A DNA stretch of 64,000 nt from Marvania coccoides (taxonomy: Eukaryota > Chlorophyta > Trebouxiophyceae > Chlorellales > Chlorellaceae): contig OY978106.1 in NCBI GenBank assembly GCA_963854735.1, positions 372,001-436,000 of the forward strand, written 5' to 3'. Of the stretch, positions 1,032 to 60,954 are shown piece after piece (the first letter of the stretch is position 1; each line of letters opens with the position of its first letter). The notes under the pieces were generated by a model, which did not search any database, was not told where the DNA came from, and was given only the letters and a program-made list of their open reading frames with translations. The position numbers and the translations under genes were made by a program.

Positions 1032-2467
1032 ATGGAGCCTGATGTCCAAGCTCTGATTGATGCCAACGCCCCCTATTTCAAGGTGCTGGACAATGGCAAG
1101 GTGGTGTGCACGCTGAACAGCCACACGATGCCCGCCCGTAAGGACGTGCTCGAGCCTTTCATCAAGTGAGTTTGTATTATTTTTTTGGCCGACGGCTGGC
1201 TGCTTCTTTCAGCACAAATTTTTCTTACCCTCCCTTCTCTACCCCTGCAGAGGGAAAAAGTTCCAGAAGATCAAGGCGCGCAAGGAAGCAGAGGACGAGT
1301 TCAAGAAGTATGAGCCCTTCATCAGCCAGTCCATCAACTTTCCGTGAGTAGTTCAAGATAAATGAAACTGCAGCATCTCTGCGTGGATTTTGCGGAATTT
1401 TTACTACTTTTCTCCCCTTGCGCTGACCACAGGGAGATGCTGTTCTGCGCGTTGACAAACCAGCTGATCGTGAAGACGAAGGAGCGGATCAAGCAGCACA
1501 TGATGGGCCAACGCTTTTTGAAGGCAAAGGGTGAGAAACCCATGAAACGCACTGTATACCTCGTTTCTTGACCCAATTATATGTGTTTGACTACTCCTTG
1601 GCGGATTACATGTTGCTGGATGATTGATAAGCAGTTAACCATCTTTCGGAGCTGACTGGCGCTAAGCGCCCTGTTGATAACCCTTTTATTGCGATGACAG
1701 CAACCGCCGAGGAGCCCCCCCTGCTAATGCACTTCTTTTTTCTATATACATCCATTTAGGTTTAGTTTTGATCGTGGCAGTTCCCATTACTTTAATTGAT
1801 TTAATTCATCACGACGGTGATCCTTTCTTCATTTCCTCTTTCTGCAGATCGTTATATGGCCGACGAGCAGGAGCTGTGGGAAGAGCCCAGCTTCGAGGAA
1901 CTGGTGAGCTAGCTTTCTCAGCCTACGTCCTAAATCCTAAATATGATTCCCTGCATCCAACAAACTCGATTGATTAATAATTAATAATTTCATTGTTTTA
2001 TTCATTTTCTGCAGGAGGCTGAGGGCGCAATGGACGAGGAGGAGAAAGACGATGAGGAGGCGTCAGAAGGCGCCAGCGGCAGCGACGAGGAGATGATGGA
2101 TCTCGATGGAGTGCAGCTGGTAGCAGGGCTCGGCAGCAGCAGCGAAGAGGAAGAAGACGACGAGGATGAAGAAGCAGCGGCAGCGCCTCCCCCACCCCCC
2201 CCTCAGGGAAAGAAGGATGAAGGCAAGCAGCAGCGAGCGACGGCCAAGGGCAAAAAGAGAGCTGCCGCTGCGCCGCCGCCGCCCGAAAAGAAGAAGCAGC
2301 CCAAGGAGAAGGTGGTGAGGCCAAAGGCGGCCAAGGAGGAGCTGCCAACAAAGAAGGCAGCGAAAAAGAGGGGTGGCGGGGGTGGGGTTGCTGCAGCTGT
2401 CGGCAATAAGGCTAATGCGGACGCAAAGCCCAAGATCAAGCACCCTGCCAAGAAGCCTCGCAAATGA
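1032..2467 (+). CDS. SURF2: SURF2 (Surfeit locus protein 2) homologue
   Basis: Five exons (1032-1165, 1251-1343, 1433-1530, 1848-1903, 2015-2467) join in phase to 277 residues. The N-terminal 110 residues match the SURF2 domain: a repeated pattern of small conserved modules around VLDNGKVVCTLNSHTMPAR, GKKFQKIKARKE, KYEPFISQS and LFCALTNQLIV...MGQRFLKAK. The last exon encodes a low-complexity Asp/Glu tract followed by a Lys/Ala/Pro-rich basic tail, typical of nucleolar proteins. SURF2 proteins are linked to ribosome biogenesis; that role is from the family, not shown here. The third intron (1531-1847) is unusually long and carries a C/D snoRNA candidate. Family assignment is good; the tail aligns with nothing specific. 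Confidence 0.85.
1612..1704 (+). ncRNA. Intronic box C/D snoRNA candidate
   Basis: The element lies inside SURF2 intron 3. A perfect 7-bp terminal stem (GTTGCTG with CAGCAAC) closes it. A C-like box GATGATTGA follows the 5' strand, and a D'-type CTGA sits at 1652-1655. The stretch just upstream (1638-1649) is complementary to CCGAAAGATGGT, which I recall as a universally conserved part of large-subunit rRNA. The fifth nucleotide upstream of the CTGA pairs with the G of CCG, so 2'-O-methylation of that G is predicted. The 3' D box is weak (ATGA). Confidence 0.55.
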
Positions 2468-53187: not shown

Positions 53188-53419
53188 CGCTACCGTGCGA
53201 TCTCAACCGAATTTAAAAGTACTGACGGAGCCCTTGACGATAAAATTTCTTCTTCATTTTCGAGGAAGAAGGCTGCCGCTCAAAAATCAAGCCTTGCCGC
53301 TGTTCAGCATATTAATTAATTTGATACATAACTGATGTGGTGATTGGAGGCGGGCCACGCGCGATTACTTTAAAACAGGTGAGACTAAACTCAACACTCT
53401 GCATGCTTGATTGCCCCGT

Positions 53420-53506
53420 CGGCTGTGACGATAACCTAGGCTCCCTCTACTGATTAAATGAGGATAAGCCCGCCATGGAATCGAAATTATTGGCACTGCC
53501 GAGCCG
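53420..53506 (+). ncRNA. Box C/D snoRNA candidate, SSU rRNA guide (GAGGGAGCC region)
   Basis: The element lies in the first host intron (53379-53708). A 5-bp terminal stem (CGGCT with AGCCG) encloses a C box GTGACGA (53425-53431) and a D'-type CTGA (53450-53453). The guide before CTGA is complementary to AGAGGGAGCCT, a conserved small-subunit rRNA stretch. The fifth base upstream pairs with the first G of GGG, which I recall as human Gm436 (SNORD100 target). The 3' D box is degenerate (CTGC), so the assignment is tentative. Confidence 0.45.
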
Positions 53507-53863
53507 GCTCTTTTAGGTTTTCATATGTTTGCATGCATGCGAAGTTCTGTTGCCCCTCTCTGAATCAAGGCAGCCCTCCCATGGCTCGCGTTGATGCGTA
53601 AATGTGGCAATAGTGATGATGTGACGCCCTCATTGGGGTTGGCGGCCACATTGGTAGCCTCCACTTCTCAGCATGTCCTTCATCACTCGTCACCCCCACG
53701 CTTTTCAGCATGAACCAACCCATTTTTTTCTTAATCTCATGTTCAGATTGATCCAGCCAACCCCTCGCCCCAGTTTCCCCGCCCCAGAACAACATTCTTC
53801 TCGGTAAGCCTCCGCCTCATCATCACATCTTTTCTGCATTCAAAGCTTTCGCCCTTTTATAGA

Positions 53864-53992
53864 GGCGTTGCCTGTAGCAATTTTGTGTGCTCCAGGTGTC
53901 GTAGGGGGGCAATACGACTGTAAGCCAGACAATAAACCAGCGCCTGCCTTTCGCGAAGCAGGCTGGTGCTGACCTGTCTCGCTGGCACATTC
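53864..53992 (+). ncRNA. H/ACA snoRNA candidate
   Basis: Intron 53804-54059. Hairpin 1 pairs GGC with GCC and an inner GTTGCC with GGCAAT-C; the H box is AGACAA (53927-53932). Hairpin 2 pairs CCAGC with GCTGG and an inner GCCTGC with GCAGGC. ACA follows at 53987-53989 with three bases after it. This is the full H/ACA layout. I did not identify the rRNA target of the pockets. Confidence 0.6.
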
Positions 53993-54141
53993 AAACCTCA
54001 CATTTTCTTTACCTGCAACCCTGATTTTCACTCTCTACCCCTTCTGCATGAATTTGCAGGTGGTTTCCACCCTTTTCCACCCCTCCCCCCCAAATATTAA
54101 CGGTGAGTATTATTATATCCAACTTCTTTCCAGCAGCTTCC

Positions 54142-54287
54142 GCACACACAGTACCCCGGACAGCTGGGACTCTCCTTATGCCTTGCATGTCCCTGTTTCG
54201 TGTGCCATAGAAACGACACGGGGTGCAGTGTTGCGGCGTGCGCCGTCCCAAAGCGGCCGTGCCGTGTCAAAAGTCGCTCCTACAACC
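54142..54287 (+). ncRNA. H/ACA snoRNA candidate
   Basis: Intron 54103-54400. Hairpin 1 pairs GCACAC with GTGTGC, ACAG with CTGT and GGAC with GTCC. The H box ATAGAA lies at 54207-54212. Hairpin 2 pairs GACACGG with CCGTGTC. An ACA lies at 54282-54284, somewhat farther from the stem than usual unless an outer CGAC/GTCG stem forms. The target is not identified. Confidence 0.5.
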
Positions 54288-54522
54288 TCAATTCTCTTTC
54301 TTTTCGCCCTTTCTTTTTCAAAATATATTATTCATTTCTTGTTTACTCCCCTTCCCTGTAAAATCTCACTCTCGATGTGCCTACCTTGCTTTGTTTCCAG
54401 GTCAAACTCCCACCGTCGTTGAAGCTTTCTCCGCCCTTCCAAGCATTGAATCTCCTCTGTCTCTTCTTCAAGGTGGGTTTTACCTCTTTGCTTTCATTGT
54501 GCTTCATCTATTGCCTTAAAAG

Positions 54523-54682
54523 CAGCCTTCTTGCCACGGCTCTGGGAGTTTTTTTTAATTAAAACGCAATGACCCAAAGACCGTCCAGAGAGGGCTGAGA
54601 GGAAGCTGTATCTGACGCTTAGGAAGCCGGGGAGTGGCCCATTTGCGCCCTCTGTTGGTGCCGAATTCTGATGTCAACATTC
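54523..54682 (+). ncRNA. H/ACA snoRNA candidate
   Basis: Intron 54473-54780. Hairpin 1 pairs CAGCC with GGCTG and an inner TCTGG with CCAGA. The H box AGAGGA follows directly (54598-54603). Hairpin 2 is closed by TGAC with GTCA, immediately followed by ACA and three bases (54677-54682). The layout is complete; the target is unidentified. Confidence 0.6.
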
Positions 54683-54872
54683 TCACTAATTTCATCATAA
54701 ACCCTTTTCCGATGGAAAAATCCTTCCAAGTTCATAGTTCTGACGATGTTTTTCTTTCTTTTTCAATTCTACGTATCCAGGGAGTACTCTTCTGCCCCCA
54801 AGCAAGCTTCATTCTTTTTTCTAGCCAACAATAGGTAAGTCTCAGTACCCGATTGTACAGCGTTCACACTTT

Positions 54873-54892
54873 TTTTGGGGGGGGGGGGGGGG
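54873..54892 (+). repeat. Poly-G run
   Basis: About 18 consecutive G residues lie in the host intron beginning at 54835. Such runs also occur as C at 8904-8927 and as G at 24159-24175. Confidence 0.8.
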
Positions 54893-54923
54893 GTCAAAGG
54901 GTTGTTTATTCTTATGGTGATTT

Positions 54924-55010
54924 GAGCTCTATGAGGAACAACACCCTTTATAATTAATAGGAAGAGCCATCTGACCTGAGTGATTGTTAACCGGGTTCAC
55001 CTGAGAGCTC
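54924..55010 (+). ncRNA. Box C/D snoRNA candidate, LSU rRNA guide (SNORD49-like)
   Basis: Intron 54835-55416. A 6-bp terminal stem (GAGCTC with GAGCTC) directly flanks a C box TATGAGGA and a D box CTGA (55001-55004). An internal D'-type CTGA lies at 54971-54974. The guide before it (ATAGGAAGAGCC) is complementary to GGCTCTTCCTAT, a conserved part of large-subunit domain V. The fifth base upstream pairs with the C of GGC, which from memory is the methylated C guided by human U49 (SNORD49). The 3' guide target is unidentified. Confidence 0.7.
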
Positions 55011-55070
55011 TTATCGTTGTAGTTTCGCTTCTCCCCGATTCAATTTTTTACTAGTCCATTCTTTTTCTAA

Positions 55071-55160
55071 GGACGCGGATGAAACCGTTATCTGTCAATC
55101 CTCCGAATGGGGGCTTCGGCCTCCTTGTGGAATGACAAACCTCTAAGAAGTTCTGAGTCC
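55071..55160 (+). ncRNA. Box C/D snoRNA candidate, SSU rRNA guide (SNORD61-like)
   Basis: Same intron as the previous element. The terminal stem is GGAC with GTCC. A C box with a GATGA core lies at 55078-55082 and the D box CTGA at 55153-55156. The guide before the D box (CCTCTAAGAAGTT) is complementary over 13 bases to AACTTCTTAGAGG, a universally conserved small-subunit stretch. The fifth base upstream pairs with the second U of CUU, which I recall as human Um1442, guided by U61 (SNORD61). Confidence 0.72.
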
Positions 55161-55537
55161 TAATTCATAATTGTCTCGTCTCCCCTTCTTTTTCTTTTGA
55201 AAGCATGGTTGGCTAAGGATGACATTTTGCTAAAGACTGGAATTACCGTCTGAATTTCATTGAAGACGATTTTTGGCTCTGAGGCCCCATGCCCTTGCAA
55301 AGAATTTTATATAATGCTCTTTTTGGCTCTGACGTATTTCATGATTTTTTTTCCCGGGGGAAATATCCGAAAAATAACCGGCAACTAATACTCAAACTCC
55401 TCCTACCTTTGTGCAGGCATACCATTCAGCTTTTAGTCAAACAATACGCAGAATTCGATCTCTGTGGGAGGTGTTTTATGCAAGGTAATGTTTTTGTTTT
55501 TCAAAAATGGGTCAATCTCTCCTAGGAGAACTTCAAA

Positions 55538-55676
55538 GCGCCTAAGCTACCCCTGCAGTCTAAGCAATAGCTCGTGGCTGTAATTGGGTCACCATATTCG
55601 GCGTAGACACACACAGCTGTTGAGTCGCAGTCGTAGCCTCGAGCCGTAATCGCCTGCGAATTTTATGCTGACATAT
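55538..55676 (+). ncRNA. H/ACA snoRNA candidate
   Basis: Intron 55485-55703. Hairpin 1 pairs GCGCC with GGCGT and ACCC/TGCAG with CTGTA/GGGT. An H-like box (AGACAC) follows; it departs from ANANNA at the last base. Hairpin 2 pairs CAGC with GCTG and CGCAG with CTGCG; ACA and three bases follow at once (55671-55676). The target is unidentified. Confidence 0.6.
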
Positions 55677-55959
55677 TTACTCTTCACATTTCTCAATGTG
55701 CAGGCGAACCTACCTTTACAGCCGCTGCAGACTCCTCGTTCTGCACTCATCTGAGATTCTCTTCTTCAAGGTGAGCAAACTCTTCACTTCAAGCAGCAGA
55801 GCCATAAGGTTTCAAGGATTTCCCTTGTCGTTTATTTATTTCCCTTGGTCCTTTGTTTAAGTTTGTTTTCCAGAAAGTAGCTTTTCGCGTAAAGTTTTTT
55901 CCTTCCTAGCTGTCGCCTGTAGAAATTGTCCTTATGTTTCTGTTTACCTCCTACTTTGC

Positions 55960-56089
55960 CTCCCACGCTTGTCTCCAATGGAAATGAAGACACTTTCCCC
56001 AAATGATCGACTCTGATTCCGACCATAGCTGTGTTCAATTCTTTAACTCAACAATTGCCAGAAAAAGCTGATCCTTGGAGACGTGGGAG
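55960..56089 (+). other. Long intronic hairpin of unknown class
   Basis: CTCCCAC pairs with GTGGGAG (7 bp) and GTCTCCAA with TTGGAGAC (8 bp), separated by a 4-base bulge on the 5' side. Two small hairpins can form in the loop (GGAAA with TTTCC; CAATT with AATTG). It does not follow C/D or H/ACA rules. It lies in the host intron that begins at 55771. Confidence 0.5.
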
Positions 56090-56137
56090 CGTCGCATTTT
56101 CTTTGTATCTTCCCCCCCATTGTTTTGCATAATTAAT

Positions 56138-56253
56138 GGTCAGTTGATGACGCAAATTAGATGACGAGACCGATTGCAGTCTGTGCCCAGCGTTCTGCTG
56201 GGCCGGTTGACTGCGCTTTAATGAGCGACAAACGAGGCATTTGTCTGATGACC
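56138..56253 (+). ncRNA. Box C/D snoRNA candidate with two adjacent LSU rRNA complementarities
   Basis: A 5-bp terminal stem (GGTCA with TGACC) encloses a near-perfect C box TTGATGA and a D box CTGA (56245-56248). The 3' guide ACGAGGCATTTG is complementary to CAAATGCCTCGT and the 5' stretch AATTAGATGACGAG to CTCGTCATCTAATT. These two targets are contiguous in conserved large-subunit rRNA, as I recall it. Internal stems (GCCCAGC with GCTGGGC, GCAGTC with GACTGC) make it larger than most C/D RNAs. Confidence 0.68.
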
Positions 56254-56623
56254 TAAAACCGCGTTTCCCCTGTTTTTATGTTTCTATTTTCCTTTTTTTT
56301 TTCTTTTCTTCTGACGGCAGCAATGGGCGCGCGTGCAGCTGAAGCAACTCGATGGCTGATGCAAAATCTCAAGGGCAAATCTGCCTAACAGGAGCTGGCC
56401 CGCCTGAAGCGCAGCTGATGGCGTATTATCTAAGGGTCTGAGGTCTATTCATTCAATTGAATTCACCGTTTTTTTTTGGATACCCATTGCTGCCGAGTGG
56501 TTCCTTTTTGTTTCGACTTTCTTCTTTGCAACTTTCTTTCTTTTTATCTTTCTTTTCCTCAGGCGCCGATTTGCCCCTCTCTCTCGCTTGACCATGCGGG
56601 GGCGAGGCTTCCTATCAATTGAG

Positions 56624-56695
56624 CGCAGATTGATGGATCGCTGGGCATAGCAAAACCATTGACATTGCTCCAGCAGGTTACTTGCTGAATCAGCG
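56624..56695 (+). ncRNA. Box C/D snoRNA candidate
   Basis: A terminal stem of CGCAGATT with AATCAGCG (one mismatch) directly flanks a C-like box TTGATGGA and a D box CTGA (56685-56688). It lies in the last host intron, just before the acceptor at 56731. I did not find a convincing rRNA target for the guide GCAGGTTACTTG. Confidence 0.5.
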
Positions 56696-56780
56696 TTTCT
56701 AACATCCCCTCTCACTCATTTTTTAATGCAGGTTCTCGTCTGAAGAAGAAGAAAAAGAAGTATTGAAGGCGGGGCATAGA

Positions 56781-57521
56781 TTTTTTTATTCTTAAGATCG
56801 CTGCTGGTTAATTATAATATATTTGCAATCATGAATTACTTATTATCTTCCTGTCATGAGTGCAGCAATCGTGTAAGACATGGAATGCAACCTGTTGATA
56901 AAGAAGGAAATAAAGGACGCAGCCCCCTCAATACTGCACCCAGATTAGGCAGGTTGTGGTGTTGCGTACGTAGCACGTAAACCTATAAAACAACTCGTGA
57001 TGCAACAGTGCAGTCCCGTGGACATGCCAACGTGCCAGTGGCTTGAATGTCTTCTTATTGTCGAGGGGCACCTTCCAGATGGCGATATGGCGATCTTTTC
57101 ATATCTTTCTGTCTCATACTGGCTGCGTTATTGAAGTGCCATTAACTTGCATGAGTGAGTTCGAAACTGCGTTATGTATTTCGATGTTTCTTTTTGAGGA
57201 TTGTTTTCTTTTTCATTACATTAATTTAATACTCTGCTTGCACTCGGTGCCAGTCTGCTACTGGGGCCTTAGTTGCCGCCCTTTTGTGCGGACTTTAAAT
57301 CCTGTAATGTATGTATGTATGATGCAGTGTCCAATTGACGCCAGGAAAAATAAAAATACAACATTATCTCATTTCTCTTTGCAATCTTGAAAAGACAGCA
57401 GGCATTCAAAATAACTGTGAAAATTAATCTTAATGGCCATAATAAATACACGCTTGAAAAATAAAAATAAAAAACTCTCGCTGTGGGAAAATGCACGCCC
57501 GTGTCGGTGTTATTGGGTCCC
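56781..57521. other. Gene-free spacer
   Basis: The spacer between the host transcript and the converging PAN-like gene. Short frames here show no family features. Confidence 0.3.
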
Positions 57522-59405: not shown

Positions 59406-60954
59406 ATGAAGCCATCAATTTTCATCGGCCTTGTTGTCATACTTTTGTCAGCATCAAATGTTATTGGTGCAGGTAAGGCACCTGTTTTAACGAATATTTC
59501 AACCCTTAATTTCTCAATCAGCCATCACGCCTCATCAATTCCCTGCATTCCCCTTTTCTGGCAGTCACGTACGTGCCAGTTTTGAATTCTGATTGTACCG
59601 CAACTTGTACTTCAAAGGCCAGAGAGATTGCTTTGGTCAACGGCGGGCAGAGCGGACTGGGTCTCTGCCGTGGAAATTCTCTTGTGAACGGCGTATATCC
59701 TATTGGTAAGGATCGGGTGTCGGAGCGTCAGATAATTGGCGGCTTTTTTAATGCAGATTACAGAATCGTTTTTAGCACACTGCCATTTATTGCGTGATTG
59801 CCCACTTTTATTTATTTTCTCGCCACTTCAGGTACAAAGATCGCTGGGACCGGCTGTCAGTATTCAGCAAATGGCGTCACGTACACAACCACAGGCTACA
59901 AATGCGGTTGCCTGGCCTCTTATACCAATGCCTACATATGGAATGCTGCACTGGCGTGCCCCTCCGGCTACGCCTCTCCTTCTTCGCCCACCGTCTGCCG
60001 CATCAAACGCCCCAGTGAGGATCACCCTCCCTTTTCCTTGATATTAAAATATGCGATTGTCAATGCGCTAATTTTCTATGACGTGTTGGTTTTTATGAAT
60101 GCAGATTACAATGAATTTGTGATGGGCTACCTTTCTGGCTCCACGTGCACTTTCCCGTCCCGTCCGTGGGGCACAAACAACGCTGCCTTGCGGACCGTCG
60201 TCAGCGCTGGCGGCACCTATCAGATGCAAATATTGTGCGAGAAAAGTGAGAAAGGACTGGCATTAGTTTATGTTTGACAAAGCATTGTTTATCACACAAC
60301 AAAGTATTTAAAAATGTCATCCATGCACCTGCAGTTGTGTCCACCCCCTGCATCGAGGTGAAAAACACCCGTGCGAGCATTGCCCAAGCGATCATCACCG
60401 CAAACTCTGTTGCGCGCTACCAGTCAGGGACTTTCTACGAGGGTGCGTGCTGCAGCGCCACGACAGGATGCAATGTCCCAAAGTGGATCCCCGGCATCAC
60501 CTACTCCCAGTCAGCAGTTGCGACAACCAACCGCTGGTCTGGCATCAAAAATTATTTTTGCCCGGTGCCCACGAGACTGCCGCCATATGCCGACTGCTCG
60601 AGTTTTGTGTCCTGGATCTACTGGACCGCCTTTGGAACGCAGCCCGACAACCTCAACGGCCAGGGCTGGGCCGCTGGTTACACGGGCAGCATGGTTACGC
60701 GAGGCACAACGGTCATTTCTTCTCTGCCTGCGACTGTGGCCGCTGCCGCTGCCCTGATCAATCAGGTGGGCTATCCAGGTGACCTTATCTTTTACGGGGC
60801 TTCCCCAACATACAGCCACGTCGCAATGTATCTTGGAAATGACAGGCTGGGTGAAGTTGTTTGCGGTGGCCTCCGCGTCGGAACTGTAGCCCAGTCATCC
60901 AGAAAGGACTGGAAAGTTGTTGTGCGCTACGCCAACTTCCCTTTCGTTTATTAA
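59406..60954 (+). CDS. Secreted NlpC/P60-like cysteine hydrolase
   Basis: Five exons (59406-59472, 59565-59705, 59832-60014, 60105-60245, 60335-60954) give 383 residues. A signal peptide (MKPSIFIGLVVILLSASNVI) is followed by about 150 residues of Cys-rich sequence (CTATCTSK, CQYSANG, CGCLAS, CPSGY). The C-terminal half holds the catalytic signature YADCSSFVSWIYW (Cys nucleophile), GYPGDLIFYG and YSHVAMYLGND (His). This is the NlpC/P60 fold, which in bacteria cuts peptidoglycan peptides. In a eukaryote it may act on bacterial walls as a defence or feeding enzyme. Four introns show it is settled in this genome, but bacterial ancestry of the domain is plausible. Confidence 0.8.

Follow-up and report, generated by a model that had tools for sequence, protein, structure and literature searches.

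A probable spliced and apparently non-coding host gene with putative C/D and H/ACA guide RNAs in the green alga Marvania coccoides

Small nucleolar RNAs (snoRNAs) of the C/D and H/ACA classes direct the chemical marking of ribosomal RNA (rRNA). In animals, genes of the UHG/GAS5/SNHG type are spliced hosts without coding capacity that hold snoRNAs in successive introns, and the classes can be mixed, as in human SNHG12, for which SNORA66, SNORA61, SNORA16A and SNORD99 are listed (PMC6759952). Clusters of Neurospora and other fungi have been described as non-coding spliced hosts with short open reading frames (ORFs) and called most like UHG (PMC2780460, PMC3596301). Intronic clusters with several snoRNAs per intron are found in rice, Chlamydomonas and Ostreococcus, the last with a reported 72 intronic snoRNAs in protein-coding genes and 49 in clusters (PMC7671301). 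Here we analyse a stretch of 64,000 nucleotides (nt) from the green alga Marvania coccoides (contig OY978106.1, positions 372001-436000; the window), in which positions 53379-56731 of the plus strand very probably hold the seven introns, with C/D and H/ACA guides in them, of a spliced, apparently non-coding host gene of about eight exons (Table 1). Together these introns seem to contain some ten guide RNAs, with both classes represented, and the locus occurs once in the genome (22.46 Mb, 15 contigs). A sequence-only reading had placed a snoRNA host at 53339..56780, and those coordinates proved correct.

The gene is very probably a host of the UHG/GAS5/SNHG type, with mixed classes and two multi-snoRNA introns, and as such belongs to a kind already known. 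It differs from the animal hosts in its organism, a green alga, and in having at least two snoRNAs in each of two introns (three in intron 5, at least two in intron 7), which breaks the rule of one snoRNA per intron usual in vertebrates. The resemblance to vertebrate host genes that had been proposed is supported for the spliced, mixed-class host, with SNHG12 as precedent, but introns 5 and 7 make the locus resemble plant and algal intronic clusters too. Unlike the N. crassa clusters, which are said to encode C/D snoRNAs only (PMC2780460), it contains both classes, and unlike the protein-coding hosts described for Ostreococcus (PMC7671301) it is apparently non-coding. Less ordinary is that each of the three helix 31 pseudouridines in 18S would have its guide on a single algal transcript. 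Among the titles listed in our literature search, none concerned an algal non-coding snoRNA host; the main Chlamydomonas paper (PMC2390600) lay outside its scope, so we make no claim to a first report. A published homology search reportedly identified no land-plant snoRNAs in green algae apart from U14 and snoR96 (PMC5122169). The matches to the snoZ103, snoR77Y, SNORD100 and U61 models give anchors for tracing those families, and a mixed-class host of UHG/SNHG style in a trebouxiophyte is relevant to whether hosts of this kind go back to a common ancestor or evolved more than once.

For the C/D elements, we scored as antisense at least 11 bases of perfect complementarity to eukaryotic rRNA before a CTGA box, at an offset of 0-2. 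The references were ribosomal DNA (rDNA) of other eukaryotes, present as contamination in bacterial genome records, and cover the large subunit (LSU) incompletely. Inside the host gene (introns and exons, 53379 to 56731), 5 of 27 CTGA boxes carry such a match, vs. 3 of 208 outside it on the plus strand and 0 of 212 on the minus strand (Fisher p 2.7e-5). The five boxes (53450, 54971, 55153, 55250 and 56245) have matches of 11-12 bases. The earlier claim was of four C/D elements with 11-14 bases before CTGA. Two CCGA boxes also have guides: 13 bases at 55103 to 18S AGGATTGACAGAT and 14, one of them G-U, at 56170 to 28S CTCGTCATTTAATT, in a variant-box scan that was run without a control and gave weaker rRNA matches at many other boxes too. 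At least 10 nt of rRNA antisense lie beside D or D' in five of the six good C/D elements, the exception being the snoZ103-like element, whose guide found no partner in the rRNAs used. Two U14 copies of the genome served as a positive control, and in each of them the test picked up the guide expected there (13 and 14 nt). These copies (L014, L015) are on contigs C2 and C4 and have the conserved 18S ACATCCAAGGAAG guide.

The 18S sites were found in references L007 and L002 (AGAGGGAGCCT), in L007 (ACTTCTTAGAGG) and in four 18S sequences (CGGTAATTCCAG), and the 28S sites in L004 (GGCTCTTCCTAT) and L009 (CAAATGCCTCGT); the CTCGTCATTTAATT site adjoins the CAAATGCCTCGT site. Positions in the L007 18S (1800 nt) are treated as those of yeast without an alignment to yeast, as its length and sites 578, 1181, 1187 and 1191 fit. 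With the fifth-base rule, the snoR77Y-like guide points to 18S U578. Judging by local sequence, we take the 28S sites of the SNORD15-like element to be those of snR13 and snR75, and that of the 54922 element to be the snR69 site. Tabulated yeast data give U578 as the methylation site of snR77 and positions 2281 and 2288 for snR13 and snR75 (PMC8307265), another published entry puts the snR69 site at 2948, and a chicken table assigns U61 to an 18S U (PMC2653536). With regard to the references themselves, conserved eukaryotic 18S is present in eight contigs (L002-L009) filed under bacterial genomes, apparently as contamination, and the L004 rDNA also carries group I introns. The IMG/VR contigs L010 and L011 have a conserved eukaryotic LSU rRNA stretch at their very start and are possibly chimeric assemblies.

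Searching the whole window with Rfam at E <= 1 gave five matches: snoZ103, SNORD100, snoR77Y and snoU61, all on the plus strand of the host locus (E 6e-5 to 3e-3), and SNORD96 at 1613-1703. When 6 kb are searched, the four models of the host locus reach E 6e-6 to 3e-4, and SNOR75 (E 0.9) and SNORD15 (E 0.56) are added, both unconvincing on their own. A scan for C and D boxes together with a short terminal stem lists the elements at 54922, 55209, 55978 and 56139; for those at 53418 and 55071, boxes and stem were taken from the Rfam alignments and from reading the sequence, the SNORD100-like D box being CCGA. Six C/D snoRNAs are well supported as predictions. The D' guide of the snoZ103-like element (55978-56076) is conserved with the Rfam family. 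This RNA may have another kind of target; our literature search found no paper naming snoZ103. The SNORD96-like C/D snoRNA (1612-1704, plus strand), which is intronic to a gene for SURF2 (PF05477, E 1e-25), has a 12-nt guide to 28S CCGAAAGATGGT.

The H/ACA elements were approached by a structural scan (two hairpins, H box ANANNA, 3' ACA) that preceded any rRNA data. It proposes elements in introns 2, 3, 4 and 7; a second proposed stretch in intron 7 overlaps a C/D element. For three of ten hairpins tested, the best 18S target is one of 14 known yeast pseudouridines, namely U1181 for the 5' hairpin of intron 2, U1191 for the 3' hairpin of intron 3 and U1187 for the 3' hairpin of intron 6; the other seven miss known sites. 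The 14 positions, and snR85, snR35 and snR36 as the yeast guides of U1181, U1191 and U1187, are tabulated in PMC8307265, with ACA5, ACA13 and ACA36 given as the vertebrate counterparts (PMC2653536). The background is 54 such landings among 3125 other boxes with a pocket (28/1231, 4/193 and 22/1701, the last set being the whole minus strand), against which three hairpins in ten give a binomial p of 6e-4. At scores of at least 9.5, the proportion is 5/18 on the plus strand of the region vs. 18/648 in the background. Without a score limit it is 8/56 there, five of the eight not being counted; the discounted landings are those of boxes 55609-55613 (three entries, score 6.5 only) and of boxes 56228-56230 (two entries), which lie inside the SNORD15-like C/D element. 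Among LSU targets for the ten hairpins, one weak site, for the 5' hairpin of intron 4, is common to both LSU references, and nine hairpins have none. Judged by the known yeast sites, pockets predicted to surround modified uridines are present in three of five H/ACA elements. At least four H/ACA and at least five C/D elements had been counted from sequence; we find five H/ACA candidates, three with target support, and six good C/D elements plus one candidate. Two of the H/ACA candidates, the C/D candidate and the second element of intron 1 are unproven. Reading that intron 1 element as C/D (GTGATGA near 53612) was rejected, as no CTGA follows.

The exon-like segments noticed earlier agree with the splice motifs, which fit a model of spliced exons flanking snoRNA introns. 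The first seven modelled exons measure 39-72 nt and the seven GT..AG introns 368, 256, 298, 308, 582, 219 and 961 nt. The donors include CAG|GTGAGA, TCG|GTAAGC, ACG|GTGAGT, TAG|GTAAGT and AAG|GTGAGC, and the acceptors finish in CAG. Between 53339 and 56780, the plus strand has five copies of the donor motif GGTRAG, all of them at modelled donors, and the minus strand has none; the mean in dinucleotide shuffles is 0.79, with at least five copies in 2 of 1000. Acceptors are weak evidence by themselves, since a loose rule finds 38 motifs of this kind. In five of the eight exons, pyrimidines make up more than 60%. That the host is spliced, with the classes in successive introns, as had been suggested, is supported jointly by splice motifs, sub-threshold Rfam models, rRNA antisense and pockets at known sites.

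Several observations weigh against this picture. The covariance-model search that had been recommended yielded four sub-threshold C/D matches at the locus and no match at gathering score in the whole window. Both U14 copies also fall below the gathering score (61 bits each vs. 64), which suggests that a genuine snoRNA of this alga can score below threshold. Fold energies calculated for ten stretches are for the most part not striking (z -2.37 to 1.67), and as a sole criterion they do not separate the elements. The intron 6 element has an imperfect H box. Shuffled 18S sequences reach the scores of the three supported pockets in 17/60, 7/60 and 7/60 cases, so that the support comes from the landing position and not from pairing strength. 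Neither universal rRNA patterns (18S and LSU) nor a search with an 18S query gave a match in the alga's assembly, which is why rRNA of other eukaryotes served as target; between one and four of the reference rRNAs underlie each of the five antisense matches, and that at 54971 depends on the divergent L004 only. L004 also yields chance matches, among them two in each U14 locus besides its guide. Outside the host, the plus-strand boxes with a 12-bp match are 1652, which belongs to the SURF2-intron snoRNA, and 2787 and 33041, which match L004 only and look like chance.

How much of this could be explained otherwise? Short boxes and weak rRNA matches at many of them might suggest that the whole pattern was found by looking, and yet the antisense, donor-shuffle and pocket-background controls, with the statistics given above, and the whole-window Rfam search leave chance next to no probability. 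The elements could instead be cut by RNase III-like enzymes from an unspliced transcript, with the exon-like segments as spacers, in the manner of plant polycistronic clusters. Such clusters have been described in Chlamydomonas and Ostreococcus (PMC7671301), and the several snoRNAs of introns 5 and 7 would suit them. However, seven donor/acceptor pairs follow each other in order, the GGTRAG excess is confined to the plus strand, and introns 2, 3, 4 and 6 each hold one H/ACA element, which makes an unspliced cluster unlikely.

Alternatively, the snoRNAs might sit in the introns of an ordinary protein-coding gene whose exons we have mis-modelled. Read through modelled exons 1 to 5, one frame stays open over 84 codons, and one frame of the last exon has a lysine-rich run. 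The 84-codon frame, however, contains no ATG, the longest ORF that starts with ATG in the spliced model encodes 45 amino acids, and seven translations from the region all fall short of a Pfam cut-off, the sole listed match being APOBEC_C (E 0.058). These results agree with the earlier impression that a conserved protein gene is absent, and we consider a coding host improbable. What the sequence shows directly is motifs, homology and complementarity, and no long or known ORF. A different question is whether every element works. The second element of intron 1, the intron 4 element and both 3' elements of intron 7 have no convincing target or significant Rfam match, and could be relics or chance structures beside a smaller number of working snoRNAs, i.e. 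a snapshot of decay. A missing target is weak evidence here, because the rRNA is a proxy and LSU coverage incomplete, and we regard this reading as possible if rather doubtful.

If the spliced non-coding host is real, we infer from its sequence that it is transcribed, spliced and processed, and that its products modify rRNA. Splicing would release the introns, which would be debranched and trimmed to cores protected in snoRNA-protein particles; introns 5 and 7, with several snoRNAs, would have to be cut once more or trimmed in steps. The C/D guides would then direct 2'-O-methylation of 18S U578, of the SNORD100- and U61-type 18S sites and of 28S sites at AAATGCCTCGTC and GGCTCTTCC, and the H/ACA guides pseudouridylation of three neighbouring positions of 18S helix 31 (yeast 1181, 1187 and 1191), of which 1191 is the hypermodified P-site base. 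We tentatively propose, at somewhat less than even confidence, that one algal transcript bundles the guides for all three helix 31 pseudouridines with guides for methylation at other sites in functional centres, and that the splicing of one non-coding gene would thereby set modification of the decoding region as a unit. The mixed-class host with multi-snoRNA introns would then join animal and plant layouts, possibly as an old green-lineage arrangement. That one gene groups the helix 31 pseudouridine guides is a directly testable prediction.

Table 1 Modelled exons and snoRNA elements of the host locus (positions in the window).
Feature	Position	Strand	Basis and predicted target
Exon 1	53340..53378	+	donor CAG|GTGAGA; 5' end not fixed
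C/D snoRNA, SNORD100-like, intron 1	53418..53508	+	Rfam 39.1 bits, E 7.8e-6; CTGA 53450, 11 bp; D' guide to 18S AGAGGGAGCCT
Structured element, intron 1, fits neither class well	53545..53665	+	hairpin 53551-53613 by eye; no H/ACA call in scan
Exon 2	53747..53803	+	splice motifs
H/ACA snoRNA, intron 2	53848..53992	+	structure scan; 5' pocket to 18S U1181
Exon 3	54060..54102	+	splice motifs
H/ACA snoRNA, intron 3	54138..54287	+	structure scan; 3' pocket to 18S U1191
Exon 4	54401..54472	+	splice motifs
H/ACA candidate, intron 4	54523..54682	+	structure scan; weak full-length snoR2/U65 match, E 4.1; no convincing target
Exon 5	54781..54834	+	splice motifs
C/D snoRNA, intron 5	54922..55012	+	6-bp terminal stem; CTGA 54971, 12 bp; D' guide to 28S GGCTCTTCCTAT, L004 only
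C/D snoRNA, U61-like, intron 5	55071..55160	+	Rfam 32.1 bits, E 2.9e-4; D guide to 18S ACTTCTTAGAGG, CTGA 55153, 12 bp; D' guide to 18S AGGATTGACAGAT, CCGA 55103, 13 bp
C/D snoRNA, snoR77Y-like, intron 5	55209..55290	+	Rfam 41.9 bits, E 1.2e-5; CTGA 55250, 12 bp; D' guide to 18S CGGTAATTCCAG (U578)
Exon 6	55417..55484	+	splice motifs
H/ACA snoRNA, intron 6	55536..55676	+	spotted by eye; 3' pocket to 18S U1187; H box imperfect
Exon 7	55704..55770	+	splice motifs
C/D snoRNA, snoZ103-like, intron 7	55978..56076	+	Rfam 42.4 bits, E 5.6e-6; no rRNA target
C/D snoRNA, SNORD15/SNOR75-like, intron 7	56139..56253	+	Rfam E 0.56-0.9; two adjacent 28S guides: CTGA 56245, 12 bp; CCGA 56170, 14 including one G-U
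Weak C/D candidate, intron 7	56340..56450	+	CTGA 56438 with 8 bp; no Rfam snoRNA match
Weak H/ACA candidate, intron 7	56573..56707	+	structure only; no target or Rfam snoRNA match
Last exon	56732..56800	+	acceptor ATGCAG; 3' end not fixed

A long G run at 54873-54892 in intron 5, just upstream of the first C/D element there, is a possible weak spot of the assembly. The head-to-head neighbour of the host gene is a prolyl-tRNA synthetase gene on the minus strand (start codon near 53188), whose hand-spliced product is up to 85% identical to its top matches and 71-78% identical to those of Micractinium, Chlorella and Auxenochlorella, the closest named organisms among the best 120 of 7995 matches. 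Further downstream, at 60274-60954 on the plus strand, this algal nuclear contig encodes a protein with an NlpC/P60 domain (PF00877, E 2e-7), a family best known from bacteria.

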